Shown one piece after another: positions 2,725 to 19,045 of a DNA stretch of 64,000 bases. Within the stretch, counting starts at the first letter, position 1. Each line of letters starts with the position of its first letter. The DNA is from Polycladomyces zharkentensis (GTDB taxonomy: Bacteria; Bacillota; Bacilli; Thermoactinomycetales; JIR-001), in contig NZ_JAFHAP010000011.1 in the NCBI RefSeq assembly GCF_016938855.1, forward strand, positions 62,001 to 126,000, in the 5' to 3' direction. The notes below the pieces were generated by a model. It had not been told where the DNA came from. It searched no databases and saw only the letters and a list, made by a program, of their open reading frames with translations. The translations under genes were made by a program, and so were the position numbers.

Positions 2725-2793
2725 AATCGGCGATGACGCGCTGTGCGGGACATTTTGGCATGGCGTTGAGCCGTCGGTACCGGGGAGGAGGTG

Positions 2794-3309
2794 ATGAATC
2801 TGGAAACCGGGTTGATGAACAAAGTGGCGCTTCGCCAACCACAGGTAGCGGATGGAATCGGGATCTGGAGCCTGGTTCGGGACACCGGAGTGTTGGACGT
2901 CAATTCCCCTTACAGTTACCTGATGCTGTGCAAGTTCTTTTCGGATACTTGTGTGGTTGCCGAACAGGAGGGACAAATCGTCGGTTTTTTGTCCGCTTTT
3001 CGACCACCGGCAGACCAGCAAACCCTGTTTGTGTGGCAGGTGGCCGTGGCCGAGTCTCAACGGGGCAACGGGTTGGGAAAGGCGCTTCTGAAAGCGTTGA
3101 TCCGTCGGGACGCTTGCAAAAATGTCCGTTATCTTGAAGCAACCGTTTCTCCGTCGAATCTTGCATCCCAGGCTTTATTCCGGGGATTGGCACGGGATTT
3201 TGCAACGTGCTGTGAAGTTTCGGAGTGTTTTCCCGCCCATCTGTTCCCGGGGGGAACTCATGAATCGGAAATGACGTTTCGGATCGGACCGTTTCGGTAT
3301 CAAACTTAA
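2794..3309 (+). CDS. ectA: L-2,4-diaminobutyrate N4-acetyltransferase
   Basis: First step after diaminobutyrate formation in ectoine synthesis: acetyl-CoA-dependent acetylation of L-2,4-diaminobutyrate. The 171-aa protein is a single GNAT domain. The acetyl-CoA loop QRGNGLG is at residues 89-95, after the typical beta strand WQVAVAE. The early motif [14 protein letters not shown] is characteristic of EctA. ATG 2794 is chosen because GGGGAGG ends five bases upstream; a GTG lies one codon earlier. It is the first gene of an ectABCD operon whose leader carries a terminator. Length and order match the family. Confidence 0.93.
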
Positions 3310-3322
3310 CTGGGGGGATTTG

Positions 3323-4606
3323 GTGAAAGTTGCGGAGGAATTACATTCACCGTTGAAGGTTTTTGAAGCTTTGGAATCGGAGGTCCGCAGTTACTGCCGG
3401 AGTTTTCCGACTGTCTTTGCAAAAGCGAGCGGCTATCAGCTGTGGGATCGGGACGGCCGGGAATATGTCGACTTTTTTGCCGGTGCCGGCGCGTTAAACT
3501 ACGGCCACAACAATCAACGAATCAAGGCCAAGCTGATCGACTATTTGATGGAAGATGGCATTACGCACAGCCTTGATATGGCGACAGAAGCAAAAGAAAA
3601 GCTGCTGGAACGGTTCCATGAGGTCATTTTAAAGCCGCGAAATCTTCACTATAAAGTGATGTTTCCGGGACCGACAGGCACCAATTCGGTGGAAAGTGCG
3701 CTGAAGCTGGCCCGCAAAGTAACCGGGCGGGACACAATCATGAGTTTCACCAACGCGTTTCACGGCATGACAATCGGTTCGCTGTCGATTACCGGGAACG
3801 AATCCAAGCGAAAAGGCGCGGGCATTCCATTGACGAATTCGATCTCCATGCCGTTTGACGGCTATTTTGGCAGTGAGGCCGACACGGTCAGCTATATTGA
3901 GCGTTTTCTCGAAGATAATGGCAGCGGCATTTCTCTCCCTGCAGCCATTATCCTTGAGACCGTTCAGGGTGAAGGCGGCATCAATGTGGCCAGTTTTGAG
4001 TGGCTCCGCAACATGGAAGAACTGTGCCGGCGCTGGAACATTCTGTTGATTGTCGATGATGTGCAGGTGGGATGTGGACGGACGGGGCCATTTTTCAGCT
4101 TTGAACCGGCCGGGATCTATCCCGACATCGTCTGTCTGTCCAAATCAATCGGGGGATATGGCATCCCGTTGGCGATGACCTTGATCAAACCTGAGTATGA
4201 TCTGTGGGAACCGGGCGAGCATAACGGTACTTTTCGCGGCCATAACCTGGGGTTTGTCGCTGCGACCGAAGCACTCAGTTACTGGGAAGACGACCAGTTC
4301 AGCCGAGAAATCCTGGAGAAGGGAGAGAAAGTCAGACTCTTCCTGGAAATGCTTGCACAACAGTATCCCGAGATGGCAGGGGAAGTGCGGGGAAGAGGGC
4401 TTATCCAGGGAATTGAAATCGGAGTGGACGGGTTGGCCGAAAAGATTTGCGCGGCCGCGTTTGAACGGGGTTTGATTATGGAAACATCCGGTCCCAACAG
4501 TGAAGTCGTCAAAATCATGCCTCCTTTGACCATTGATGAACAGGGGCTTGAAAAGGGACTGACCGTTCTGGAGGAAAGCTTTGAGCGGTGCAAACAGATG
4601 ATGTGA
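3323..4606 (+). CDS. ectB: Diaminobutyrate-2-oxoglutarate aminotransferase
   Basis: PLP enzyme that converts L-aspartate-beta-semialdehyde and glutamate to L-2,4-diaminobutyrate, supplying ectoine synthesis. The 427-aa protein is a class III aminotransferase. The N-terminal [14 protein letters not shown] and phosphate-binding GPTGTNSVE motifs are seen, followed by [13 protein letters not shown] and the Schiff-base lysine in [10 protein letters not shown] (Lys ~274). GTG 3323 is preferred, with GGGGGG five bases upstream. It sits 13 bases after ectA and 18 before ectC, consistent with one transcript. Length is usual for EctB. Confidence 0.94.
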
Positions 4607-4624
4607 AAAAGGAGACAGGTAATC

Positions 4625-5098
4625 ATGATCGTCAAACATCTGAATGACATCATCGGAACGAAAGATGACGTGGACACTGAGACGTGGAACAGCCGCCGTC
4701 TGCTTTTGAAAAAGGACGGGATGGGCTTTTCGTTGCACGACACGATTATCAAGGCGGGAACAGAAACCACGATTTGGTACAAGCACCATGTGGAAGCGGT
4801 GTACTGCATCGAGGGAGAAGGAGAAATTGAGGTCGTGAAAGACGGCACCGTTTACCCGATTCAGCCCGGAACTTTGTATGCGCTGGACGGTCATGAAAAG
4901 CACTATTTGCGTGCAAAGTCCGATATGCGGATGGTTTGTGTGTTTCATCCGCCGTTGACAGGGCGAGAGGTACATGATGAAGAAGGGGTGTATCCCATCA
5001 TTGAAGAGGAGTCACGGGAGAATCGCCCGAATCCACACCCTGACGAAAGGGCACAAAGGGTGGAACCACAAACCGTTCGGGGGGAATTGGGGAAATGA
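4625..5098 (+). CDS. ectC: L-ectoine synthase with C-terminal extension
   Basis: Cyclises N4-acetyl-diaminobutyrate to ectoine. The cupin core occupies residues 1 to about 130, with [12 protein letters not shown] at the start, the [11 protein letters not shown] strand and the metal-site region [24 protein letters not shown] precedes the ATG. The protein is 157 aa, some 20-30 residues longer than the usual ~130. The extra tail (after VYPIIEEE) is polar and rich in Glu, Arg and Pro. The stop codon overlaps the start of the hydroxylase gene by four bases. Confidence 0.93.
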
Positions 5099-5985
5099 GC
5101 AACTTACAGGGCGGGGTGATGGATCTCTATCCTTCGCGAGTGGATGACAAACCGGTGATTTTGGAACGGAAAGATCCAGTCATTTATACCAAAGATCCCG
5201 CAGCAGGTCCGCTTGATGCCGAACAGCTGGAATTTTATCAGAAAAACGGATACCTGTTCTTCGAACGTTTCTTTTCTGAGGAAGAAGTGCGGGAATTGCG
5301 CAATGAGCTGAGACGGCTCTGGGATGCGAACCGGGATTCGGATGCGGAGGAAGTGATTCGTGAGCCGGAAAGCCGGGAAATTCGATCGATCTTTGCTGTT
5401 CACCGCAACAGCGATACTTTTAAACGGTTATCGCAAAATCAGCGGCTGACAGACATCGTCAAACAAATTCTCGGCAGTGATGTCTACATCCATCAGTCCC
5501 GAATCAATTACAAAAAGGGTTTTGCGGGAAAAGAGTTTTACTGGCACTCTGACTTCGAGACCTGGCATGTGGAGGATGGCATGCCGCGTATGCGGGCGTT
5601 GAGCTGTTCCATCTCGTTGGAAGACAATTATCACTTTAACGGGCCGTTGATGGTGATTCCGGGCTCCCATCAATATTTTCTCTCTTGTGTGGGCCGTACG
5701 CCGGAAAATCATTATCGGCAGTCGCTTCGGAGACAGGAGTACGGCGTTCCGGACCAGGACAGTTTGACCTGGTTGGTGAATCAGCACGGGATTGACGCAT
5801 TGACAGGCCCGGCCGGTTCGGTCGTGCTGTTCGACTGTAACATCATGCACGGGTCCAACGGCAATATCACCCCTTTGCCGCGGAGCAATGTGTTCTTTGT
5901 TTACAACAGTGTGGAAAACCGGTTGGTGGAACCGTTCTCCGGGCAATCACCCCGGCCGGAGTTTATAGCAAGCAGAGAGCGGTAA
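5095..5985 (+). CDS. ectD: Ectoine 5-hydroxylase
   Basis: Fe(II)/2-oxoglutarate dioxygenase that makes 5-hydroxyectoine, often linked to heat and desiccation protection. The 296-aa protein shows the facial triad: His151 and Asp153 in YWHSDFETW and His252 in NIMHGSNGN, with the 2-oxoglutarate-binding Arg shortly after (PLPRSNVFF). The ATG overlaps the ectC stop (ATGA), so the two are translationally coupled. It ends the operon; a palindromic terminator lies ~110 bases downstream. Length matches the family (~300 aa). Confidence 0.94.
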
Positions 5986-7753: not shown

Positions 7754-8327
7754 CAACAAACCCCTCCCAGCTTCTTGCTACTAAAAAAGTCTATTTTTAC
7801 AATAATTCATTTTTTTGTATGCATTATCCTGTCGTTATACTAAAGATTTTCACGGATGCAAAACCTTTATGTGTGGGAATCAGCCAGATTTTCCCCGGCA
7901 GTTTCGACCGGCGGACGTCATATAAAACCGAGAAGAGTCTTTGATCGTATATAAAAAATGAGGAGCACACAGATGTACTCCTCTCCGGGCAATCTGCCCG
8001 GTGATAATATGCACCCACCTGTACATGAAACATCCGATGTAAAAACATCTATTCCAGCAGGAAGGTATTTCGTCGATTGGTTTTTGGAATGGTTTATCCC
8101 CAGTATTAATTTAATTGTCCCATGTTTCGATGAAGTGTATTGGGGATAAAGAATATGAATGACTCAATTACCAGATGTGCAACCGGCAAAATCCTGCGTA
8201 ATAGCAAGAAGACGTGATCAGGAAGGATTTACCGTTATCACGTGGAAGTTATTGTTTTAGAGGAGGAGTCCAGGTGCGGGTCGCGTTCCTTTCCTTCGTC
8301 ATTTGGCGAGGAAAGGAGGTGATGCGT
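7754..8327. other. Intergenic stretch without a convincing gene; contains one copy of a duplicated 110-bp segment
   Basis: The left part is AT-rich and carries a short CCGGGCA...TGCCCGG hairpin near 7986-8002 with no T run. Bases 8108-8219 match 11082-11194 (separate entry). Open frames up to ~70 codons exist on both strands, but none has a good ribosome site or recognisable motif. The end forms the 5' leader of the small hydrophobic gene at 8328. Confidence 0.5.
8108..8219 (+). repeat. Direct repeat, copy 1 (partner at 11082-11194)
   Basis: About 110 bases that recur, at ~85-90% identity by eye, at 11082-11194 in the same orientation. Shared blocks include TGTCCCATGTTTCGATGAAG and CAACCGGCAAAATCCTG. 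No coding function was found. The two copies flank the first CRISPR cassette and fit a segmental duplication of the island. Confidence 0.8.
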
Positions 8328-8432
8328 ATGACGGAAACGATCGCTTTGCTATCACTATTGTTTCAGGTGATCGGTACGATCAACTTAGTGGTGCAAGTTA
8401 TCGTTCACGTCGTCACATCACGAAAAAAGTGA
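8328..8432 (+). CDS. 34-aa hydrophobic peptide, holin-like/type I toxin candidate
   Basis: A tiny protein with a near-perfect ribosome site (GGAAAGGAGGT at 8310-8320, eight bases before ATG 8328; another ATG at 8322 is too close). It is one transmembrane helix (about residues 4-29) with an acidic start (MTETIALL) and a basic end (TSRKK), the layout of type I toxins and small holin-like toxins of Firmicutes. Its stop lies inside a strong bidirectional terminator. A promoter on the opposite strand at 8524-8553 would make an RNA antisense to its 3' end, as in txpA/ratA or bsrG/SR4. The toxin role is inferred. Confidence 0.6.
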   Translation: MTETIALLSLLFQVIGTINLVVQVIVHVVTSRKK

Positions 8433-8465
8433 CCCGTGGGCTGCCGAACCTAGGGGTCACTTTTT
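8424..8465. terminator. Bidirectional terminator shared by the peptide gene and the opposing RNA
   Basis: AAAAAGTGACCC pairs with GGGTCACTTTTT around a ~20-base loop. T runs on both strands mean it can end the peptide mRNA and the opposing transcript. Confidence 0.8.
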
Positions 8466-8517
8466 CGTGAAACTCAGTGTGTAGAACGCGGCCCATATCG
8501 AGGGCTCCTTCTCGCTT
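8424..8517 (-). ncRNA. Candidate antisense RNA antitoxin
   Basis: Predicted transcript of ~95 bases starting about seven bases after the minus-strand promoter and ending at the shared terminator. It would be complementary to the 3' untranslated end and terminator of the peptide mRNA. No open frame of note lies in it. Existence is inferred from promoter plus terminator only. Confidence 0.45.
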
Positions 8518-8523
8518 ACTCAT

Positions 8524-8553
8524 ATTATACACACTTTTTACCAAAAAAATCAA
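8524..8553 (-). promoter_or_regulatory. Minus-strand sigma-A promoter facing the small hydrophobic gene
   Basis: On the minus strand TTGATT (8553-8548), an 18-base spacer and a perfect TATAAT (8529-8524) point toward the 3' end of the peptide gene. Confidence 0.65.
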
Positions 8554-8600
8554 ACTGAATTTGGATTGCAACGTTGAAGCTCTCAATTCGATTGTGACTT

Positions 8601-8630
8601 CCCCCCACGGCTTCAGCCGTGGATGCCCGA
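8601..8630. mobile_element. IS200/IS605-type terminal hairpin remnant
   Basis: CCACGGC (8605-8611) pairs with GCCGTGG (8616-8622) around TTCA. This short hairpin next to a pyrimidine-rich ACTTCCCC is typical of IS200/IS605 ends. No transposase or TnpB gene lies nearby, so only a relic end is claimed. Confidence 0.45.
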
Positions 8631-8638
8631 GCACTCAT

Positions 8639-8791
8639 TTGTCGTCGATCAGGAATGGCGCAAAAACCCCTGGGGATCGACGACAATGTTTCTTTTGTTT
8701 GTGCATGAATTTATGATTATTGAGCATTATCACGATCAATAAAGTTGGGGATTTTGCTATAATGAAGAGGCAATGATCGTGTATCGGAGGA
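8639..8791 (+). promoter_or_regulatory. CRISPR leader of array 1
   Basis: Leader preceding the first repeat. It starts with a hairpin (GTCGTCGATC with GATCGACGAC, 8641-8683), continues through a T-rich stretch and contains an extended -10 TGCTATAAT (8756-8764) ~28 bases before the repeat. The same leader occurs at three other places in the island (10691-10842 minus, 13175-13325 plus, 14961-15112 minus). Confidence 0.75.
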
Positions 8792-8942
8792 GTTTATGAA
8801 CTACCTATGAGGAATTGAAACATGTACAAAGCGCGTCCTGTTCAAGTTTATGAACCATCTATCAAGGAATTGAAACAGGTATTCGCCGTATGGCATGTTG
8901 GTTTCATAGGTGGTTTACGAACTACCTACGAGGAATTGAAAC
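8792..8942 (+). CRISPR. CRISPR array 1: three repeats, two spacers
   Basis: Repeats at 8792-8821, 8846-8876 and 8913-8942. The first reads GTTTATGAACTACCTATGAG and ends GAATTGAAAC, a 30-base unit with the ATTGAAAC end typical of type I-B/III arrays. The second is 31 bases with changes and the third has two substitutions. Spacers are 24 and 36 bases; the first is unusually short. A hairpin with T run (8985-9011) ends the unit. No cas gene is in the window. Confidence 0.75.
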
Positions 8943-8983
8943 TCATCACCCACACCTCATTTGACGTCGAACCGGAACGGTGT

Positions 8984-9012
8984 TGGGGAGAGGGGAAATC
9001 CTCTTTTTTTGT
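8984..9012 (+). terminator. Terminator after CRISPR array 1
   Basis: AGAGG...CCTCT stem followed by TTTTTTT. An equivalent hairpin follows array 3 (13440-13464), so the trailing sequence is part of the duplicated unit. Confidence 0.7.
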
Positions 9013-9162
9013 GTCTTGTTTTGACTCAACTTCAGTATAAAGTTAAGTCTTGCAGGTATTCATCCATTCGTGAGGGTGAAATTAGAGAACTGCTAACAAG
9101 AGGTAGGGTGAGCGGATATACAGGACATCATATCATCAGTTTTGAGTAAGTGGAGCAATGTA

Positions 9163-9702
9163 ATGACCAAGAGTGGTTTTACAGTCGGTCCAACAGATGA
9201 ACATGTAATCAATGAGATAAAAAGATCACTGCATCTTAGTGAGAAACTCTTAAGTTGGTATAGAAAATGTGCACCGAGAATAGAGGAGTTGGATTTTGGA
9301 GGTAATCCCATTCATTTGTATGAACCGGAAGAGCTGGTTGATTTACAAATAAATTTTAGCCACGATTTGTATTGTATGAAGAAGAATCCTGACTGGAAAG
9401 AGGATTGGATTGTAATCGCTGATAAAGGTTTGGACCCTTTCATTTTTGATCAGAAAACAGAGAAGATTTATCATGCATTGCATGGGCAGGGACATATCCG
9501 TTTAAGAGAAATTGCACCTTGTTTGGAGGATTTTATTGAGACTTTGAGTATACTTACCGAGATTTGTTATCTCAAGTATCATGGTCAGTTTCTGAATGAT
9601 GGCTGGGAATTCGACAAAAAGATCTTGCAGGAAATTGAGGGAAAGTTGAGTACTTTCCTGCCCAAGGAATGTGTGAAAAATTGGGTAATGATTTTGGAGT
9701 GA
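9163..9702 (+). CDS. SMI1/KNR4 (SUKH) superfamily protein, orphan immunity-type gene
   Basis: A 179-aa protein with the SUKH pattern: an N-terminal helix, LDFGGNPIHLYEPEELVDLQ, then DWIVIADKGLDPFIFD and the closing helix PCLEDFIETLS. SUKH proteins commonly act as immunity proteins for nuclease toxins of polymorphic toxin systems. ATG 9163 is preferred over an upstream TTG because GGAG lies seven bases before it. It is the only intact gene between CRISPR arrays 1 and 2, and no toxin gene accompanies it. Codon use is AT-richer than in flanking housekeeping genes, as expected of acquired cargo. The protected target is unknown. Confidence 0.8.
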   Translation: MTKSGFTVGPTDEHVINEIKRSLHLSEKLLSWYRKCAPRIEELDFGGNPIHLYEPEELVDLQINFSHDLYCMKKNPDWKEDWIVIADKGLDPFIFDQKTEKIYHALHGQGHIRLREIAPCLEDFIETLSILTEICYLKYHGQFLNDGWEFDKKILQEIEGKLSTFLPKECVKNWVMILE

Positions 9703-10149
9703 AGTATGAACTGAATAGGGGACCCAATCGCAATCCTAATATTAACTGAGAGATGGCGTTTCCAATGTCAGTAACACCACACCTTTCCGGGGCAACTTTT
9801 TTCCAAAAAACATTGTAATCGGCATTCCAATAAGCGCAGGATCAAAAAACGCAGAGAAGATACGCTTTGTTGCGAAATTCGGGAAGCGTCGGCCAAAAGT
9901 AGATGAAATGGTTTCGATTGTTTATCCAAACTCGTTGCAAATTTGGCCTGCTTCTATCCAGCTCCTCAATAATGGATTCGTTTACGGCGGTTAGCCGCTT
10001 TTCCCGGATGGAGCGCTCGGTTGAGCAATGGATCATCTTCATTGGTAAGAATCTACCGCTCCTATTTTTCTCCGTTTATGGTACGTCGGATTAAAGTAAA
10101 AGGGTAGGCATCCTATTGATGTCCTACCCTTAGGTGTTTTGATATCAGT

Positions 10150-10330
10150 GGGAATAGAGTTAATTCAATTGGCTATCTGGCTTTCAAATAGTGATGGGCA
10201 CATGGATGATGCGATTCTGAACACTGTTGGTGGTTGATTGGTTATGGGGCTTTTTGGCAGTTCAAACACTTCACACAGGGTCATAAAACCAAATCGAAAC
10301 AAGATCAACCACATATCTTTTCTTGATGAC
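10150..10330 (+). pseudogene. Gene remnant A, related to remnant B at 14590-14765
   Basis: Short in-frame pieces such as GIELIQLAIWLSNS and MDDAILNTVGG correspond to VDDVTLNTVGT and LFKHFTQDQNTKLKQDQ in remnant B, with stops and frameshifts between. The shared nucleotide blocks (TTGATTGGTTATGG, GAAACAAGATCAACCACAT) show common origin. The family is not recognised. Each remnant ends at a GCCGCC-GGCGGC terminator just before a CRISPR array. Confidence 0.4.
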
Positions 10331-10332
10331 AG

Positions 10333-10356
10333 GCCGCCTTTAGGCGGCTTTCTTTT
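10333..10356 (+). terminator. Terminator after remnant A
   Basis: GCCGCC (10333-10338) pairs with GGCGGC (10343-10348), followed by TTTCTTTT. The same hairpin lies at ~14771-14793. Confidence 0.75.
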
Positions 10357-10384
10357 ATGAAACGACATTCTAATAGAGTTGGAA

Positions 10385-10690
10385 GATTTCGATACTTCAT
10401 ATCATAGGTAGTTCATAAAGTTGTAGACGACGCGTTTCGGTGTCACGTCGGAATCTTTGGGTTTCAATACCTCTAGGTATCTTAGAAACTCGTAGGGTGG
10501 TCAAACATCGCTGGAACAGTTGGTTAGTTTCAATACTTCATAGGGATCTCAGAAACGTTTTGGCCGCGTATACATTTGGTTCATCATGTGGTGTTTCAAT
10601 ACCTTATAGGGTAGCTCAGAAACGATATGCCGATGAGTAGGACGTGCGAAAATCATATGGGCTTCAATTCCTCATAGGTAGTTTATAAAC
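10385..10690 (-). CRISPR. CRISPR array 2: five repeats, four spacers, minus orientation
   Basis: Leader-proximal repeat at 10661-10690, then 10593-10623, 10527-10556, 10461-10489 and a degenerate distal one near 10385-10420. On the plus strand the units begin GTTTCAATACC and end AGAAAC or TAAAC, the reverse complement of array 1 repeats. Spacers are 37, 36, 37 and ~40 bases, normal for type I-B. Repeats decay away from the leader. The leader lies to the right, so arrays 1 and 2 converge on the SUKH gene. Confidence 0.85.
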
Positions 10691-10842
10691 CCCTCAGATG
10701 CACGTTAATTGCCTCTTCATTATAGCAGAATTTCCATCTTTATTGATCGATAACACCCGATAACCATAAATTCATGCACAAACAAAAGAATGATTGTCGT
10801 CGATCCCCAGGGGTTTTTGCACCACTCCTGATCGACGACAAA
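10691..10842 (-). promoter_or_regulatory. CRISPR leader of array 2
   Basis: Reverse-complement copy of the array 1 leader, including the extended -10 (TGCTATAAT on the minus strand, near 10716-10726) and the GTCGTCGATC hairpin at its outer end (10796-10839). Confidence 0.75.
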
Positions 10843-11081
10843 AGAAACTCTACACACAAGAGGAACGGTTGTTATGTTTATCAGGAGTACTGTTATGAAA
10901 GGCGGGATTGCTTTCAGAGATCAATAGCATTTTGAAGGATGAAGCTGCTCTGCGTTAGGCTTGGTATATTCTTTTTGATTCGTTGGATATCATGAAATGC
11001 ACATAAACATCCGATGCAAATCTACATGTTTACTTCTACTCAAGCCGGATAATGGCATCAATCGGTTTTTTTCCAGCTATT

Positions 11082-11194
11082 GATTTATTTGTCCCATGTT
11101 TCGATGAAGTGTGTTGAGGATAAGGAATATGAATTACTTCAATTACCAGATGTGCAACCGGCAAAATCCTGTGTAAGACAAGAAGACATGATAA
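11082..11194 (+). repeat. Direct repeat, copy 2 (partner at 8108-8219)
   Basis: Same-orientation duplicate of 8108-8219 with scattered substitutions and small indels. Confidence 0.8.
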
Positions 11195-11356
11195 AGCCAT
11201 TTGTGTATATTTATCAGACGATCCGCGAAATCCACTTCCAATGGGAGCATTAGCAACGCCCCCGTGCTGATCATCACAATGAGTTGTCCGATGGAACCTG
11301 TTCAGATACGACTTGTCTTCACCGGAAAACAAATGAAGCCGATCGTTTATATCTTT

Positions 11357-11365
11357 TGATATAAT
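11357..11365 (+). promoter_or_regulatory. Extended -10 promoter of the DUF1963 gene
   Basis: TGATATAAT (TGn plus a perfect TATAAT) lies 25 bases before the GTG start. No good -35 is seen, as is common with extended -10 promoters. Confidence 0.5.
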
Positions 11366-11389
11366 AACATGTCGGGAGGAGGATAGAAC

Positions 11390-12196
11390 GTGGGAAAAAT
11401 AATGAATTATCTAACTGAGATAATGAATATGAAACAAAAAGCATTGGATGTCATTGATCGAAGCGGGCTTCCCGCAGATGTTTGCTCTGTTTTGAAAAAA
11501 GATCTTAGGTATTCCATTCAAATCAAAACCGAACGTGTGAAAAACGGTGAAAGTCTTCCGATTGGCCAAACGAAATTTGGAGGGGTTCCGCATTTACCTG
11601 ATCATATCGAGTGGCCGATGTATCATGATCAATACATTCCGTTCTTCTGTCAGCTTAATTTAGCAGAAATTGCGCCTTGGGATTTTGAAAATCGGTTGCC
11701 CAAAAAGGGCTTGTTATATTTCTTTGATACCCAAGAACCCGGTGAAGGGTATAACGTCATTTACTATGATGGGGATATCCAAAACCTGAAACCCCGTTAT
11801 CTGAAAGATGAATCTATGATATTTGAATGGGGCGAACCTTACCATGAGTGTAAAGTTTCTTTCGCTCCGGCATGGATGTTAGCAACATATCCTTCCGCCG
11901 AATTTGATCTCGCATTGGAAAGACATGGTATTGATGACTCGCTTGATGTATATTGGAAAGCAACGGATGAACTGGATCATTTAACCCCGGATTTTGAACA
12001 TCGAATTTTTGGCTATCCGTACATGGGTTATTCCGGTACTGATGACAGAGAAACACTGCTGCTGGAAGTAAGTTCGAATGATGAGATGGATTTGACCATT
12101 TGGGATGCTGGATTGGCTCAATATTTTATGCCTGTTACGGACCAAAAACCTTTCTGTGAGTTTGATAAGGTAGAACGAGGTATTTACTCCTCATAA
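11390..12196 (+). CDS. YwqG/DUF1963 family protein, orphan immunity-type gene
   Basis: A 268-aa protein with DUF1963 landmarks: KFGGVPHLPDHIEWP, FFCQLNLAEIAPW, LPKKGLLYFFD and the late acidic strand TLLLEVSSNDEMDL. Members such as YwqG lie in polymorphic-toxin loci and are predicted immunity proteins. GTG 11390 has GGGAGGAGG seven bases upstream. The C-terminus (AQYFMPVTDQKPFCEFDKVE) matches the family's closing strands, so it is full length. It is followed by a SUKH gene, with no toxin between. Function as immunity is inferred from family and neighbours. Confidence 0.82.
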   Translation: MGKIMNYLTEIMNMKQKALDVIDRSGLPADVCSVLKKDLRYSIQIKTERVKNGESLPIGQTKFGGVPHLPDHIEWPMYHDQYIPFFCQLNLAEIAPWDFENRLPKKGLLYFFDTQEPGEGYNVIYYDGDIQNLKPRYLKDESMIFEWGEPYHECKVSFAPAWMLATYPSAEFDLALERHGIDDSLDVYWKATDELDHLTPDFEHRIFGYPYMGYSGTDDRETLLLEVSSNDEMDLTIWDAGLAQYFMPVTDQKPFCEFDKVERGIYSS

Positions 12197-12322
12197 GAGG
12201 TTAAATAAGGGACCAGGGTACATGCCCATCAGGCTTAGAAAAAAGTGATCCCAAAACGAAAAGGGGCAATGTTACAGATCCGTAATCACTTTGATTGGTT
12301 GATTAGAGGAAGGAGCCCGCCG

Positions 12323-12754
12323 TTGAAAATCGGAGTACTCAAAAATATGCTGGAAAAACGTGGGGTTTTGCAAAAACTTTCTCCCTTAACCGGTCAAGAG
12401 ATTGAGGGGATTCGTAGAAATTTTCCTGGTATTCCGGAGGACTATCTGTCTTTTTTGGCAGAGTGTGGATATGGAGAGTTGGGAGTGTTTCTCTATAGTG
12501 GCCCGATAAAAGCAAACGAGATGTATGATTATGAAGAGTTGAAAGAAGAAGATCCCATCGAGTATGAAAAGTGGGAGCAAACATGGTTGATTGGAGACTA
12601 TGGAATGGGGGATGCTTTCGGATACTGCATTCAAAATGGAAAGTATCATCTCGTAGATGTAGATCATGTCTCCTTGGAGATACAGGAACGATCGACCGAT
12701 TTCTGTACGTTTCTGACTTCTTTCGTATCCTCAGACAATGCAGACGCAAAATGA
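12323..12754 (+). CDS. SMI1/KNR4 (SUKH) family protein, orphan immunity-type gene
   Basis: A 143-aa SUKH protein. The fold entry LTGQEIEGIRRNFPGIPEDY and FLAECGYGELG are classic SMI1/KNR4 motifs, followed by GDYGMGDAFGY and the closing helix DFCTFLTSF. TTG 12323 is chosen because GGAAGGAG lies about eight bases upstream; an ATG far upstream has no ribosome site and would add an unrelated N-terminus. It is about 125 bases after the DUF1963 gene, probably co-transcribed. With that gene and the SUKH gene at 9163 it makes a set of solitary immunity genes. Confidence 0.83.
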   Translation: MKIGVLKNMLEKRGVLQKLSPLTGQEIEGIRRNFPGIPEDYLSFLAECGYGELGVFLYSGPIKANEMYDYEELKEEDPIEYEKWEQTWLIGDYGMGDAFGYCIQNGKYHLVDVDHVSLEIQERSTDFCTFLTSFVSSDNADAK

Positions 12755-12760
12755 TCGGGA

Positions 12761-13103
12761 ATGAAACAAAATAACGCTGATCGAAGTAAGAAGACTTTCC
12801 CACAAGATGGAGTTAGCTACCAGATAAAAATGATGATTACGTCGGAACACACGAACAGGCCGACAAAGTATGTATCCTCCGTCGCTTCATTCTTGGGAAA
12901 TTCTCTTGATGAAGAAACGGAAAACCGGATTCTTCGGTTCGACAGACACGATTGATTTGATGATATATTTTTCTGGTGATCATAGAGAACGGGTTAAGAT
13001 TACGCTGGCATCTCATTTGGATATGGATGAGCTCACATTGTACGAGCGCGAGATAAGAGTGGATAAATATATATCAGAAAATATGAAGAGGGCGCGTATG
13101 TGA
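12761..13103 (+). pseudogene. Frameshifted remnant of a small gene
   Basis: Two overlapping frames together look like one protein broken near 12940. The first covers 12761-12955 (ending ETENRILRFDRHD); the second ends DELTLYEREIRVDKYISE at 13103. Neither has a good ribosome site. Composition resembles the neighbouring immunity genes, but no family is recognised. A real short gene in the second frame cannot be excluded. Confidence 0.3.
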
Positions 13104-13174
13104 TGGAGGAAGTACTCCTTCAGCCACCCATTTTCAATGGTGGATCAGGTGATGCGGTTTTTCCGCAAGATTGT

Positions 13175-13325
13175 CTGTCGTCGATCAGGAATGGTGCAAA
13201 AACCCCTGGGGATCGACAACAATCATTCTTCTGTTTGGGCATGAATTTATGGTTATTGGGCATTATCGATCGATAAAGATGGGAATTCTGCTATAATTAA
13301 AAGGCAATGATCGTGTATCGGAGGG
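13175..13325 (+). promoter_or_regulatory. CRISPR leader of array 3
   Basis: Third copy of the leader: GTCGTCGATC hairpin at 13177-13219, T-rich centre, extended -10 TGCTATAAT at 13289-13297, first repeat at 13326. Confidence 0.75.
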
Positions 13326-13419
13326 GTTTTTGAACTACCTATAAGGAATTGAAACTCCAAGAACCGAACGTCGTCGGCCACAACCTCCGTGACGTTTATG
13401 AACTACCTATAAGGAATTG
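13326..13419 (+). CRISPR. CRISPR array 3: one full and one truncated repeat, one 38-base spacer
   Basis: Repeat 13326-13355 begins GTTTTTGAACTACC and ends GAATTGAAAC. After a 38-base spacer (13356-13393) a second repeat begins GTTTATGAACTACC but is cut after GGAATTG at 13419, where it joins the trailing sequence also seen after array 1. A terminator follows at 13440-13464. Confidence 0.7.
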
Positions 13420-13439
13420 TAGAACCGGAAAAATGTTGA

Positions 13440-13464
13440 GGGAGAGGGGTACCCTCTCTTTTTT
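13440..13464 (+). terminator. Terminator after CRISPR array 3
   Basis: GGGAGAGGG pairs with CCCTCTC and is followed by TTTTTT; counterpart of the hairpin at 8984. Confidence 0.8.
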
Positions 13465-13834
13465 GTGTGGATGTTTTGACTCGAGTCAGTATAACTCTGG
13501 ATCAGGTTGATAGGCGGGGAGAAAAAATAGATGCCTAAAAAGGTAAATTTCTGGAGCTGAGAGGGTGATAGAAACAGAAAAAGCCCAGCAATACACTGGG
13601 CAAGTAAAATTCACACGTGGTGTTTATTTCCTTTTGCTATCTTAAACATTGTAACATGCAGTGTCTGTATCCTACTGAAGCGGTGTCTCCGGGGAGGTTT
13701 ACCGTTTTTCCAGCGTCATATGTTTGGATAGGAGCTTTGTCTCAAATAAGAGAAAATTGCCATCCGCTTGGTCTGACTTGTCACCGCTCACCGTTCACCG
13801 AGAAAACATTCCAGCCTCACGGTTTTACTTGCCC
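13465..13834. other. Intergenic stretch inside the second CRISPR cassette
   Basis: No gene with a usable start or recognisable motif. The bases next to the array (GTTTTGACTC...GTCAGTATAA) match the corresponding place after array 1. CCCAGCAATACACTGGG (13586-13602) is a small hairpin. Confidence 0.4.
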
Positions 13835-14290
13835 CTAGGAACGGGCTTCTCTTGCAATCTCTTCCCAGGTGATACCTTTTTTTCGCTGAAGATTGCTGAT
13901 CACTTCCTCATCAAAGTTCAGGAGACAAACAGTGAAATCCTCTATCCGGAGAAGTGGTTTCTCGTTTTTCAAAAGCTCAAAGCTCCATAGTAACGGTCGA
14001 TACCCTTCGGATGGATCATCCAAATACTTGTAGAACAAATTTCTGTTTTTTTGGTTGATGGGTCCGTCCACCTGAATACTGTTCTCCATCCCTTCCCACG
14101 GTCGAATGGTGACTTCAGACAGGCTTGCAAACTCATTTTTTCCCGTCATCAGGGGATTGTTCGGATCATATTCATTTTGAGCGCCCGGAAAAAAAACACG
14201 GAACCTCGTACACTCCTCCAAGTAGAAGTCAAAGATTTGAATCCAGTTTTCATAACTTGGGATATGGGAAATGACCAAACGATCGCTCAT
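13835..14290 (-). CDS. Putative immunity protein, 151 aa, family not recognised
   Basis: Acidic soluble protein with an aromatic-rich start (SYENWIQIFDFYLEE), a middle rich in Asp/Asn and Gly, and the C-terminal part EEVISNLQRKKGITWEEIA. It lies 27 bases downstream, on the same strand, of a fragment resembling a toxin C-terminus (14318-14521), the usual toxin-immunity order. The ATG at 14290 has only a weak ribosome site, consistent with an original coupling to the toxin gene. It sits between CRISPR arrays 3 and 4, the position held by the SUKH gene in the first cassette. The role is inferred from context. Confidence 0.55.
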   Translation of the reverse strand: MSDRLVISHIPSYENWIQIFDFYLEECTRFRVFFPGAQNEYDPNNPLMTGKNEFASLSEVTIRPWEGMENSIQVDGPINQKNRNLFYKYLDDPSEGYRPLLWSFELLKNEKPLLRIEDFTVCLLNFDEEVISNLQRKKGITWEEIAREARS

Positions 14291-14317
14291 TCAGTTTCAC
14301 CCGGCTTTTCAATGGAG

Positions 14318-14521
14318 TTAGTTAACAGTCGGGAGATCTTGAATCTTGTTCAAGTCTAATTGAAAATGCTTTTTCAGATATTTTTCAAATTTATCTTTCT
14401 TTTTACAATCTTTATGATTGGCGTGGCTCTCGTCGAAAGGTATGACTGGAACAGAATCGCCTGGCACGATGAGATCAGCAACGATGATCGCAATAACCCC
14501 CCCTACGTTCACGAGGAGTTT
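14318..14521 (-). pseudogene. Probable toxin C-terminal fragment upstream of the putative immunity gene
   Basis: About 67 codons open from a stop at 14524-14522. The segment is a short hydrophobic stretch (GGVIAIIVADLIVPGD) followed by a Lys-rich, His-containing end (DESHANHKDCKKKDKFEKY). This layout is common in tips of polymorphic toxins left as orphan cassettes. A GTG at 14512 exists but without a ribosome site. Nothing upstream in frame continues the protein, so a delivery domain is lost. The toxin class is not recognised. Confidence 0.35.
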
Positions 14522-14579
14522 TCAACTCTCAAGTTCAACTATACTTGCGACCGTCCGTTAGGAGTAGAAGGAGCGAAAA

Positions 14580-14793
14580 CCGATTTTGGTGGGGATGGAG
14601 TTAATTCAAGTGGCAGTTAGCTATCAATGGAACATTAAGGAGTATCGACGTGGATGATGTGACCCTGAATACTGTAGGTACATTGATTGGTTATGGATCT
14701 TTTCGGCTGTTCAAACACTTTACACAGGATCAAAATACGAAACTGAAACAAGATCAACCACATAGGACAGGCCGCCTTAGGCGGCTTTCTTTT
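14580..14793 (+). pseudogene. Gene remnant B with terminator, related to remnant A
   Basis: One frame reads SIDVDDVTLNTVGTLIGYG and then FRLFKHFTQDQNTKLKQDQ without a start. The upstream piece GGDGVNSSG is in another frame, so a frameshift separates them. It ends at GCCGCC...GGCGGC (14771-14787) with TTTCTTTT. Nucleotide blocks match 10150-10356. Confidence 0.4.
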
Positions 14794-14795
14794 AT

Positions 14796-14960
14796 ACCTC
14801 GTACCTTATAGGTAGCTTAGAAACGTGGGAACAACAGGGAGAAAGTAGCGTACATTAACAAATTTTAATGCCTAATATAGGTAGCTCAGAAACTCGACAA
14901 TTTCCGAAAACAGTGGAGGAAGAAGAGTCTGTTTCAATACCTTATAGGTAGCTCAGAAAC
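14796..14960 (-). CRISPR. CRISPR array 4: three repeats, two spacers, minus orientation
   Basis: Leader-proximal repeat 14931-14960 (plus strand begins GTTTCAATACC and ends CTCAGAAAC), then 14863-14893 and a decayed one at ~14796-14824. Spacers are 37 and 38 bases. The leader is on the right (14961-15112), so arrays 3 and 4 converge on the putative immunity gene, just as arrays 1 and 2 converge on the SUKH gene. Confidence 0.8.
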
Positions 14961-15112
14961 CCCTCCGATGCACTATAATTGCCTCTTCATTATAACAGAT
15001 TCCCCATCTTTATTGATCAACGATGCTCGAAAAACATAAAATCATGCACAAATAAAAGAATCGTTGTTGTCGATCCCCGAGGGTTTTTGCACCACTCCTG
15101 ATCGACGACAAA
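14961..15112 (-). promoter_or_regulatory. CRISPR leader of array 4
   Basis: Fourth leader copy, minus orientation, with TGTTATAAT near 14988-14996 and the outer hairpin at 15068-15110 (slightly altered: CCGAGGG instead of CCAGGGG). Confidence 0.75.
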
Positions 15113-15252
15113 AGAGACTCCCAAAACAAAAGGAACGGTTGCTATGTTCATCAGGGATTCCGTTATTATAATTTTATGAAATGAGGGAGATGAAATTGCT
15201 GTAAGCAATCGATGGCACCCGGAAGGGATGAAATGCTCCGTGTTAAAAAATT
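15113..15252. other. Flank of the second CRISPR cassette
   Basis: AAAGGAACGGTTGCTATGTT and following bases resemble the flank outside array 2 (10855-10890), marking the right edge of the duplicated unit. No gene seen. Confidence 0.4.
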
Positions 15253-15288
15253 GTATATAAAAAATAACGGGACGCTCAAGCTCCCGTT
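15253..15288 (-). terminator. Terminator of the receptor-peptide operon
   Basis: On the minus strand AACGGGAGC pairs with the complementary GCGTCCCGTT and is followed by ATTTTTTATAT. It lies 13 bases after the peptide gene stop. Confidence 0.85.
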
Positions 15289-15301
15289 AATTCAAAAAAT
15301 C

Positions 15302-15433
15302 TTATCCGCTTCTTGGGTCTCCCATGGTTGGAGAAACATCAGCAATAGTTGATGGGTTTTTGGGGATGGAAGAGAATGTTAGCCCTAAACTTAGTAGTAG
15401 GGCTATGGTGAGGATTATTTTACAAAATCTCAT
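15302..15433 (-). CDS. 43-aa secreted pro-peptide, probable quorum-sensing signal (Phr/PapR-like)
   Basis: Short gene, easily missed. The ATG at 15433 overlaps the last codons of the upstream HTH-TPR gene (its stop TAA is at 15422-15420) in the +1 frame, a coupling typical of rap-phr and plcR-papR style pairs. The protein starts MRFCKIILTIALLLSLG, a basic residue plus hydrophobic signal segment, then a small-residue region and a polar end ...SPTMGDPRSG. In such pairs the C-terminal 5-10 residues are released outside, re-imported by an oligopeptide permease, and bind the receptor. A terminator follows directly. The mature peptide is not predictable with certainty. Confidence 0.75.
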   Translation of the reverse strand: MRFCKIILTIALLLSLGLTFSSIPKNPSTIADVSPTMGDPRSG

Positions 15434-16748
15434 GGTAACCTTCCTCCTCACTACGCTCTTCTAGAGTGGCTGCTACTTCATACATATTTTGCAAGTAGTT
15501 GACGAATTCCTCTTTGTTTTGGTCTTTTTTCAAACTCGTGAGGCGGAAGAGAGCTTTGTACTCAAGAACTTTATTACGATGGTTTCTGGTCAGCTTCAAA
15601 GCCTGACTATAAAATTTATTTGCTCCTTCCATTCTTTCCTGTTTTTTTAGATAATCTCCCATTACTAATAATGCGAAAAATCGAGGGATAACAGTAGCCT
15701 TTTCACTTAAATTTACCGCCTTATTGAGTATTTCTTCAGCTTTTTGTGACGCTTGTTTGTTGATATAGACCAAGCCCAGCATTGTATATGCAGGGACCAG
15801 CACGTTGATGGAGGAATAGTTTTCTAAGTTTAATGCGGTTAGGAGACAAGTCTCGGCTTTGTCCCAGTCTTTTTGATACAAATAGATGCTGCCCAATATT
15901 GCCCAAAAATTAAATAGGACATCTACTTTTCCATTGAGTCTGGCCTTCTCAATTCCCTCTTTTGCAAATTTGATTGCTTGATCATACACTTTCATCCGCT
16001 TTAATAAATTTGACTGAAGTTCATAAAGATGAAGAGCGGGGGAGGTGTCCATTCGATCAATATGCTCCCACATATTTTGCACAATTTGCATTGCTTCCCC
16101 CAGACGTCCCATCTTCTCGAGGTAGGTGGCTTGGTTTAAGGCGATGGTAAATTTGAGCTGAGGACGCTCACCCTTTTCTTCATAGGCATCTGCGGCTGAC
16201 TCAGTGTAATGGAGGGCTTGGTTTAGATCACCTTGATGATAGTAACAAATTCCCAGTTCGTTAAAACTGAGTGCTTCAAAGTTTTTCTTTTTGTTTAGTC
16301 CTCTGCTGGAAAGTCGGATGGCGTTAAACAGAGAACGTTCCGCTTTTGAAAACTGGGATTGTTGAATCAGACATCTTCCCCTTATGTAGTGTACATAGGG
16401 AGCGTACGGGTGGTCATCCTCTACTTCAATCGTATTCAGCACTTGCATAATCTTGTGTGTGTCGACATATCCGATTTGGGACTCCAGTGAAAGTAATCGG
16501 AGATATAAATGCTCTGCTTTCTCATCTTCCCCCGCCAACAACTCCGGAATTTGGTCCAATGACAGCCCCAGCTTCTTCAACAGATACATCACTTTCTCTG
16601 CATTCACATGCGGGACCCCACGCTCGATGTTACTGACGGTTGCCGGAGAGATGTTTTCGTCAGCGAGATCTTCCAAACGCAACCCCTTTCCTTTTCTTAC
16701 TTTTCGGATAATAGAACCGATTTGAATGAGATCAAGTTCTGGCATCAT
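15420..16748 (-). CDS. HTH-TPR regulator, RRNPPA-type peptide receptor
   Basis: A 442-aa cytoplasmic protein. Residues ~9-62 are an XRE-type helix-turn-helix (IGSIIRKVRKGKGLRLEDLA, then TVSNIERG). The rest is TPR repeats, with clear units such as FNELGICYYHQGDLNQALHY and AILGSIYLYQKDWDKAETC and LGLVYINKQASQKAEEILNK. This layout is that of PlcR/NprR/AimR-like receptors controlled by re-imported peptides. The RBS AGGAGGAGA precedes tandem ATGs. Directly downstream and overlapping is a 43-codon signal-peptide gene, which supports a receptor-pheromone pair. Targets are unknown; candidates include its own promoter region at 16750-17100. Confidence 0.85.
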   Translation of the reverse strand: MMPELDLIQIGSIIRKVRKGKGLRLEDLADENISPATVSNIERGVPHVNAEKVMYLLKKLGLSLDQIPELLAGEDEKAEHLYLRLLSLESQIGYVDTHKIMQVLNTIEVEDDHPYAPYVHYIRGRCLIQQSQFSKAERSLFNAIRLSSRGLNKKKNFEALSFNELGICYYHQGDLNQALHYTESAADAYEEKGERPQLKFTIALNQATYLEKMGRLGEAMQIVQNMWEHIDRMDTSPALHLYELQSNLLKRMKVYDQAIKFAKEGIEKARLNGKVDVLFNFWAILGSIYLYQKDWDKAETCLLTALNLENYSSINVLVPAYTMLGLVYINKQASQKAEEILNKAVNLSEKATVIPRFFALLVMGDYLKKQERMEGANKFYSQALKLTRNHRNKVLEYKALFRLTSLKKDQNKEEFVNYLQNMYEVAATLEERSEEEGYHEIL

Positions 16749-17267: not shown

Positions 17268-17736
17268 GTGTGTCTGGTCATTTGATCATGTTCCCGGGTG
17301 AGCGATTGCCCCGGTTTGGCCGAGCGAAGGCCCGGAAAGAACGCAGGGATGGTTTCGCGGGCAATCCCACCAGGCGTGTCAGGTCATTCCGTAAGGGAGC
17401 AATGTTTTCCCAGGCGAGCGACTGACCAAGCCCTGACTGAGCGAAGACACGGGAAGCGCAGGATGGAAATCGCGGGCCATTTCCGCAAAGCGAAGCGTAC
17501 TTTGCCCGCGACCTGCGCTGACCGGGTCGGAGCGGTCATCATCTGCATCCCTGCAGGGCGCAGGTGGAGTGAGCCGGGAAAGCAATGTGGACAACACCAG
17601 ACACACTCTAGGCAAAGCGTACTTTGCCTGCCCGTGTCCCGCGCTCGGGATCGGAGTGATCATGATCTTCTTCCTTGCAAGGTGCAGATGAAACGAACCG
17701 GGAAAACAATGTGGACTGTATTCACCAGACACGCCC
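17268..17736 (+). repeat. Composite of dispersed GTGTGTCTGG-type elements; left copy of a ~415-bp direct repeat
   Basis: Bases 17291-17710 recur at 18628-19040 with roughly 90% identity by eye. Within them are at least two nested elements: ends GTGTGTCTGGT (17268), GGCGTGTCAGGT (17373), ACCAGACACACTC (~17596) and ACCAGACACGCCC (17724). Internal blocks such as GCGAAGCGTACTTTGCC and GAGCCGGGAAAGCAATG recur at 41.2 and 48.9 kb. No transposase is encoded; the structure is MITE-like. Confidence 0.75.
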
Positions 17737-17760
17737 TGATACATCTGGGAGGTGGAGCAT

Positions 17761-18594: not shown

Positions 18595-19045
18595 AGCGTG
18601 TGAGGTAAATCCGTGAGAGATAAAGCTTTCCCGGGTGAGCGATTGCCCCGGTTTGGCCGAGAAAGGCCCGGAAAGAACGCATGGATGGTTTCGCGGGCAA
18701 TCCCACTAGGCGTGTCTGGTCATTCCGTAAGGGAGTAATGTTTTCCCAGACGAGCGACTGACCAAGCCCTGACTGAGCGAAGACTCGGAAGCGCAGGATG
18801 GAAATCGCGGGCCATTTCCTCAAAGCGAAGCGTACTTTGCCCGCAACCTGCGCTGACCGGGTCGGAGCGGTCATCATCTGCATCCCTGCAGGGCGCAGGT
18901 GGAACGAACCGGGAAAGCACCGTGAACAACACCAGACACACTCTAGGCAAAGCGTACTTTTCCTGCCCGCATCCTGCGCTCCGGATCGGCCATGATCGAC
19001 TTTCTGAGAGGGTGCAGGTGGAGCGAACCGGGAAAGCGATAGGGG
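18595..19045 (+). repeat. Right copy of the ~415-bp direct repeat (dispersed element composite)
   Basis: Begins at the reductase stop codon with AGCGTGTGAGGT, and from 18628 follows the left copy base by base with scattered changes to ~19040. It again holds GGCGTGTCTGGT and ACCAGACACACTC ends internally (18714 and ~18935). The two copies in the same orientation frame the reductase gene. Confidence 0.8.

Follow-up and report, generated by a model that had tools for sequence, protein, structure and literature searches.

A putative RRNPPA-type receptor-pheromone pair in Polycladomyces zharkentensis, from a family probably restricted to one bacterial order

Does a small open reading frame that begins inside the end of an HTH-TPR regulator gene encode the peptide signal of that regulator, or does it have another meaning? 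The locus that raises this question lies in a 64,000-nt stretch of Polycladomyces zharkentensis DNA, the whole of which is called the window here. The original prediction had read it as a new receptor-pheromone pair that could control the neighbouring accessory island. RRNPPA systems with the features discussed below are already well established, and we consider it likely (probability of roughly 0.88) that the window locus is an RRNPPA-type quorum-sensing pair, with a peptide that, as we infer from sequence, would be exported, taken up again and bound by the receptor. The features of the locus, and one of a related genome (G002), are as follows.

15420-16748, minus strand: receptor/regulator gene (442 aa), an open reading frame with an HTH at residues ~8-66 and nine predicted TPR helix pairs at residues 64-432
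16617-16649, minus strand: DNA-reading segment SPATVSNIERG, residues 34-44, nearly invariant in 143 aligned paralogs
16134-16136, minus strand: codon of Asn205, proposed pheromone-backbone anchor, based on conservation and comparison with Rap
15443-15449, minus strand: Shine-Dalgarno sequence GAGGAGG for the peptide gene, within the 3' end of the receptor gene
15302-15433, minus strand: propeptide gene, ATG start, 43 aa, overlapping the receptor stop by 14 nt
15305-15322, minus strand: predicted mature pheromone region, C-terminal GDPRSG, suggested by the family motif and by tandem copies in relatives
about 15261-15293, minus strand: terminator-like hairpin with a U-rich tail, 3' of the peptide stop, from folding against shuffles
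L264:8457-8822 (G002): truncated receptor remnant, with the receptor end and the peptide deleted

The receptor starts with an HTH_3 domain (Pfam, residues 14-66, E 2.9e-7, above the cut-off), followed over residues ~111-412 by matches to many TPR families, which are canonical and strong. In the AlphaFold2 model, built with 62 homologs (mean pLDDT 92.8), the HTH is joined to paired helices at residues 64-432 that were counted as nine TPRs; open reading frame, Pfam domains and model all agree with the HTH-TPR regulator as it had been located and described beforehand. Among the 50 PDB matches listed by Foldseek for this model, apo NprR (5dbk_A) has the best TM-scores (TMq 0.61, TMt 0.75) and the Rap of phage Phi3T is also present. 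In the order of E-values, eukaryotic TPR proteins (LGN) come first, with Rap and NprR lower, as expected for canonical TPRs. When the PDB was searched with the receptor sequence, the TPR parts of the named RRNPPA receptors were not matched and only Rgg/MutR-type proteins were found, through the HTH, while the viral structure library returned only generic repeat proteins for the model. The N-terminal HTH of RRNPPA transcription factors (HTH_3, PDB matches to the Rgg-type HTH) and the C-terminal set of 5-9 TPRs forming a concave groove (Pfam, AlphaFold2 model, NprR TM-score) are both present.

The last 14 nt of the receptor gene are shared with the propeptide open reading frame, so that the receptor stop codon falls inside it. 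The encoded 43-aa sequence is MRFCKIILTIALLLSLGLTFSSIPKNPSTIADVSPTMGDPRSG. An AGGAGG (15443-15448) stands 9 nt ahead of the ATG, a placement that counters the alternative start at a GTG at 15451 (49 aa). Open reading frames were called signal-like when they had a charged N-terminus and a hydrophobic core by Kyte-Doolittle score; a small propeptide gene with a secretion signal, adjacent to the receptor and on the same strand, as in RRNPPA systems, is present when the signal is judged by this hydropathy only. As predicted from sequence, the mature window pheromone is probably 5-8 aa long. The stop codon is followed by a GC hairpin (z = -3.9; 0/200 shuffles fold as well), which a simple terminator scan did not list. 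The overlapping 43-aa peptide with a signal segment, closed by a terminator, had been proposed before this analysis, and its parts were recovered here: the ATG frame, its Shine-Dalgarno sequence, the signal-like N-terminus (by hydropathy), the GDPRSG tail, and the hairpin with its U-rich tail.

Homologous receptors were fetched from 38 genomes of the same order, which gave 144 distinct ones with enough downstream DNA. A signal-like open reading frame was found at the receptor stop in 75/144 cases; dinucleotide shuffles yielded 2.6 +/- 1.7, the antisense strand 8 and control positions within the receptor 2-3. Without four weak cases 71 remained, of which 66 have a Shine-Dalgarno sequence before the in-frame start (8 at the control point); with four more found by eye, 75 peptides were used for the motif work. 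Among the starts preceded by such a sequence, 46 begin precisely 14 or 17 nt upstream of where the receptor stop ends; these offsets (-14 and -17) are the two commonest in the family, and the window peptide has the former. For the peptide frame, pN was 0.21 and pS 0.42 (pooled over seven ortholog pairs), and since pN is half of pS the frame is under coding constraint. The distances of receptors and peptides co-vary (Mantel rho 0.26, 0/500 permutations). Peptide-linked receptors were present in 25/38 genomes, a count based on the part of each genome's receptors that was fetched, and about half of the receptor homologs are without a peptide gene. On the tree, the pattern of peptide presence and absence requires 28 changes or more, which means that gain or loss of peptide genes is frequent.

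The C-terminal ends of the propeptides share a motif. In 57/75 peptides, proline occupies precisely the fourth position from the C-terminal end, often within [E/D/N]-P-G; the residue preceding it is usually E, D or N, and the next one is often G (SEPGGL, SSNPGSG). A [DENQ]P pair occurs in the last seven residues of 60/75 peptides, vs. 14% with shuffled C-terminal parts. The commonest form of the motif in the family is [E/D/N/Q]-P-G, and the window tail reads GDPRSG. Around ten propeptides carry tandem copies of their terminal 5-8 residues (QSEPGGL four times, NSEPGGL three times, GNPGEY four times, SEDPGMS three times, and a run of SAFPGPT-type units), and a tail that is repeated in an otherwise drifting frame points to a processed signal. 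At the sequence level, the conserved motif and the tandem copies support a putative short mature peptide at or near the C-terminus, as known from RRNPPA systems. The longest pheromone-like arrays of this set, with ~6-7 tandem SAFPGPT-type units, are found in the propeptides of L071 and L072. Outside the order, a genome from another family of the class (G054) encodes a TPR-matching protein of ~474 aa with an overlapping propeptide that contains three IAGDDVGLSL copies (L280), a similar system with a different motif.

In the receptor model, Asn205 occupies position 6 of helix A in the third clear TPR pair. Asparagine is found here in 73/74 peptide-linked receptors vs. 47/69 receptors without a peptide, 22/69 having lost it (Fisher p 2e-7, kinship ignored), and the independent-pairs test of this link went in the expected direction (1.5 vs. 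0.1) with too few events. In Rap, Asn225-227 anchors the peptide backbone, and in the structures of Rap, PlcR and PrgX a key TPR asparagine anchors the peptide (PMC3601992, PMC11343458). By analogy, we propose that Asn205 is the counterpart, within the TPRs, of the asparagine with which Rap anchors its pheromone. Glu414 is not relied on here as a tracker of peptide presence, because its median p of 0.02 (sign test on independent pairs) came from a set of 16 tested sites.

The small frame could have arisen by chance in the 3' part of the transcript, next to an ordinary HTH-TPR regulator; a short open reading frame proves nothing by itself, and roughly every second homolog lacks one. This explanation has to face the excess over shuffled sequences (75/144 vs. 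2.6), the Shine-Dalgarno sequences (66/71), the common C-terminal motif and an ortholog frame that stays intact despite strong divergence. As far as sequence comparisons go, it is refuted at the family level, where the pair originally predicted recurs beyond chance, and we give it practically no credence for the window. Type I-like toxins are also 30-50 aa long and often unannotated, and the short frame, with its hydrophobic N-terminal half, might encode a membrane-inserted small protein (a type I-like toxin or a membrane modulator) under the control of the regulator instead of a pheromone. However, conservation falls on the polar C-terminal tail and not on the hydrophobic segment, the tails repeat in tandem as expected for a processed signal, and many genomes have several such frames, each with translational coupling to a TPR receptor of its own, which makes a membrane protein very improbable.

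A further reading is that each cell senses the peptide it has itself produced, for self-sensing or timing, in which case the peptide would not be a population signal. Known Phr peptides are discussed as timing devices, and the window shows no dedicated exporter or protease gene next to the pair. On the other hand, the N-terminus resembles a Sec signal and the genome has import proteins of the right family, namely four oligopeptide-binding proteins (SBP_bac_5), and we regard pure self-sensing as unlikely.

As the quorum-sensing pair that we favour, the locus would give rise to one transcript, from which the receptor and, via a second ribosome start in the receptor's end, the 43-aa propeptide would be produced (co-transcription is presumed). 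The N-terminal signal would direct export of the propeptide, and extracellular cleavage would release a short C-terminal peptide ending in DPRSG, which an oligopeptide permease would re-import. Inside the cell, the peptide would sit in the concave TPR groove, where Asn205, judging by its conservation, would hold the backbone, and its binding would change DNA binding by the N-terminal HTH. Gene order, order-wide recurrence, the C-terminal motif, tandem copies, the TPRs and the anchor asparagine together lend strong support to the RRNPPA reading with which the original prediction began.

Gapped-dyad counts upstream of the receptors gave the ribosome-binding site and A/T runs only, and no shared operator. 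A shared neighbour gene as target was rejected, the neighbours being diverse except for one conserved setting, with a BrkB-type protein (8/44) and DapH (4/44), which in our reading is mostly that of the SEPGGL clade. The HTH segment (SPATISNIERG at the family level) hardly varies across the 143 aligned paralogs, and for this reason the paralogs of one genome may share their DNA sites; while the DNA-reading helix stays nearly the same among paralogs, their sensor halves and peptides differ. A many-to-one network, in which up to 25 receptors per genome with their own [E/D/N]-P-x pheromones would act on the same DNA sites and exchange of a cassette of C-terminal TPRs and peptide would give new specificities, is put forward here as a tentative and rather doubtful possibility.

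In the nearest relative, from the same genus (G001), the pair has the same flanks on either side and is encoded on the opposite strand of the contig. The flanking DNA is for the most part ~90-94% identical to the window and the aldo/keto reductase neighbour is 96% identical in protein; the receptor is 81% identical and the peptide far less. A broken peptide frame in close relatives would have spoken against the pair from the outset, and the frame is intact in G001 at the same place (MKSCKIVAMLSIVLALFCGVLLYQPTPSFISSNIIPNTGDPTSG). A downstream hairpin is likewise in the same place, with a sequence unlike that of the window (z = -1.6 when folded within a longer stretch). It had been suggested that only the C-terminus of the peptide might vary between orthologs, and the opposite was observed, as ..GDPxSG is the best conserved part and the signal and linker segments differ most. 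Receptor codons 1-238 are ~93% identical between the two genomes and codons 239-442 ~66%, with diverged four-fold sites at 31/87 vs. 31/44 (p 0.0002), and the peptide falls below both values. Recombinational exchange of a specificity cassette is one explanation for this break, proposed from these two sequences. The third genome of the genus, G002, keeps only the first ~80-120 receptor codons at the syntenic place, and the receptor-peptide locus can therefore be lost.

Neither same-genus relative has the accessory island of the window (~7850-15300), and the pair is accordingly independent of it; in place of the island, G001 has ~1.1 kb with an IS605-type fragment. The suggestion that the pair could control the island did not hold up well: G001 keeps the pair and the flanks without the island, G002 has neither, and in the window the terminator hairpin separates the two. 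Control of the island was therefore rejected as the main role, and the island is probably not a direct target of the regulator. Island genes at 9142-9702, 11390-12196 and 12245-12754 are immunity-type genes without an obvious toxin partner (one DUF1963 and two SMI1/KNR4 SUKH-1, of which one scores slightly under the Pfam cut-off). A leader-like element (~90-180 nt) occurs in four copies and in both orientations (8635-8944, 10467-10845, 13176-13425, 14802-15110) and carries degenerate CRISPR-like 30-nt repeats (GTTTCTGAGCTACCTATAAGGTATTGAAAC, period ~67); no Cas1 was found in the genome. Because these elements flank the SUKH and DUF1963 genes, the decayed arrays may have served as recombination sites. 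Elsewhere in the window, the gene run at 2791-5985 looks like ectoine/hydroxyectoine biosynthesis (ectA, ectB, ectC, ectD in this order, from reading the proteins) and is conserved near the locus in relatives. A dispersed GC-rich REP-like repeat (~150-180 nt) lies beside the receptor upstream region (17438-17737, 18774-19043) and elsewhere, and is also present in G001 and G002.

Receptor homologs at E <= 1e-30 were found in 41/41 searched relatives of the order (up to 25 each) and in 0/19 genomes of other orders; a wider genome draw gave one partial receptor match outside the order. No full-length match at E <= 1e-20 was found in the sampled Bacilli genomes outside the order, and the family profile, used on 10 of such genomes, gave weak partial matches only (E <= 1e-6, best 1.5e-11). 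A single-protein search of named genome contigs had no match, and an alignment-based search of them recovered 79 loci, all from genera of Thermoactinomycetaceae (Marinithermofilum, Melghirimyces, Marininema, Paludifilum, Kroppenstedtia, Thermoactinomyces, Laceyella, Shimazuella, and others) or from MAGs filed under that family or under Bacillota. As receptor copies were not found in IMG/VR or in phage and plasmid collections, a phage or plasmid origin of the pair was rejected.

In AloR-AloP of Paenibacillaceae, the closest known system in lifestyle, an HTH-TPR receptor likewise stands directly before a propeptide of 32-50 aa, genomes carry many paralogs (16 in P. polymyxa, > 25 in some species) and some receptors have no peptide (Voichek et al. 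2020, PMC7425212). The mature AloP peptide is at the extreme C-terminus, e.g., SHGRGG (PMC7425212). AloR-AloP belongs to another bacterial order and the AloR TPRs are divergent, whereas the TPRs here have strong Pfam matches and the motif is [E/D/N]P-G. NprR-NprX of the Bacillus cereus group also combines an HTH with nine non-degenerate TPRs and gave the best listed TM-score, but has another pheromone motif, while the family here is multi-copy; in large NprR-associated propeptides the pheromone is often repeated (PMC9765709). The NprR subfamily is defined by an identity >= 30% over 80% to NprR (PMC10075063), and the window receptor probably lies outside it, because NprR is absent from its 46 PDB sequence matches at E <= 1 (single-sequence search). 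Mature peptides with a DPG motif are reported to be widespread in AimR-AimP (arbitrium) and in the Paenibacillaceae RRNPP subfamily 08 (PMC12700828), both of which resemble the present family in their P-G motif. AimR, however, belongs to a clan with degenerate TPRs and is carried by phages; since the TPRs here are canonical and the collections searched held no phage copies, membership in AimR/arbitrium was rejected.

With regard to novelty, RRNPP_detector has already counted four candidate Thermoactinomycetaceae pairs within biosynthetic clusters, as stated in the available part of PMC10075063, and these are probably in part the same family. That portion of the main text gives no description, motif or name for them, and a literature search combining Thermoactinomyces, pheromone and quorum sensing found no paper. 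The claim of a new pair is thus right only in part. The pair probably represents a distinct, order-restricted RRNPPA subfamily, apparently known so far only as unnamed candidates.

The family, large and little described, is present across a single order of heat-loving bacteria from soil and sediment. For Thermoactinomycetaceae, a concrete and testable set of predicted pheromones is now available (e.g., GDPRSG, GEPSHG, SEPGGL, SDQPGG, SEDPGMS). The combination of NprR-type nine-TPR receptors with P-G peptides, the motif of arbitrium and subfamily 08, bears on the origin of the arbitrium peptides, and the near-invariant HTH over many paralogs makes signal integration vs. isolation directly testable.
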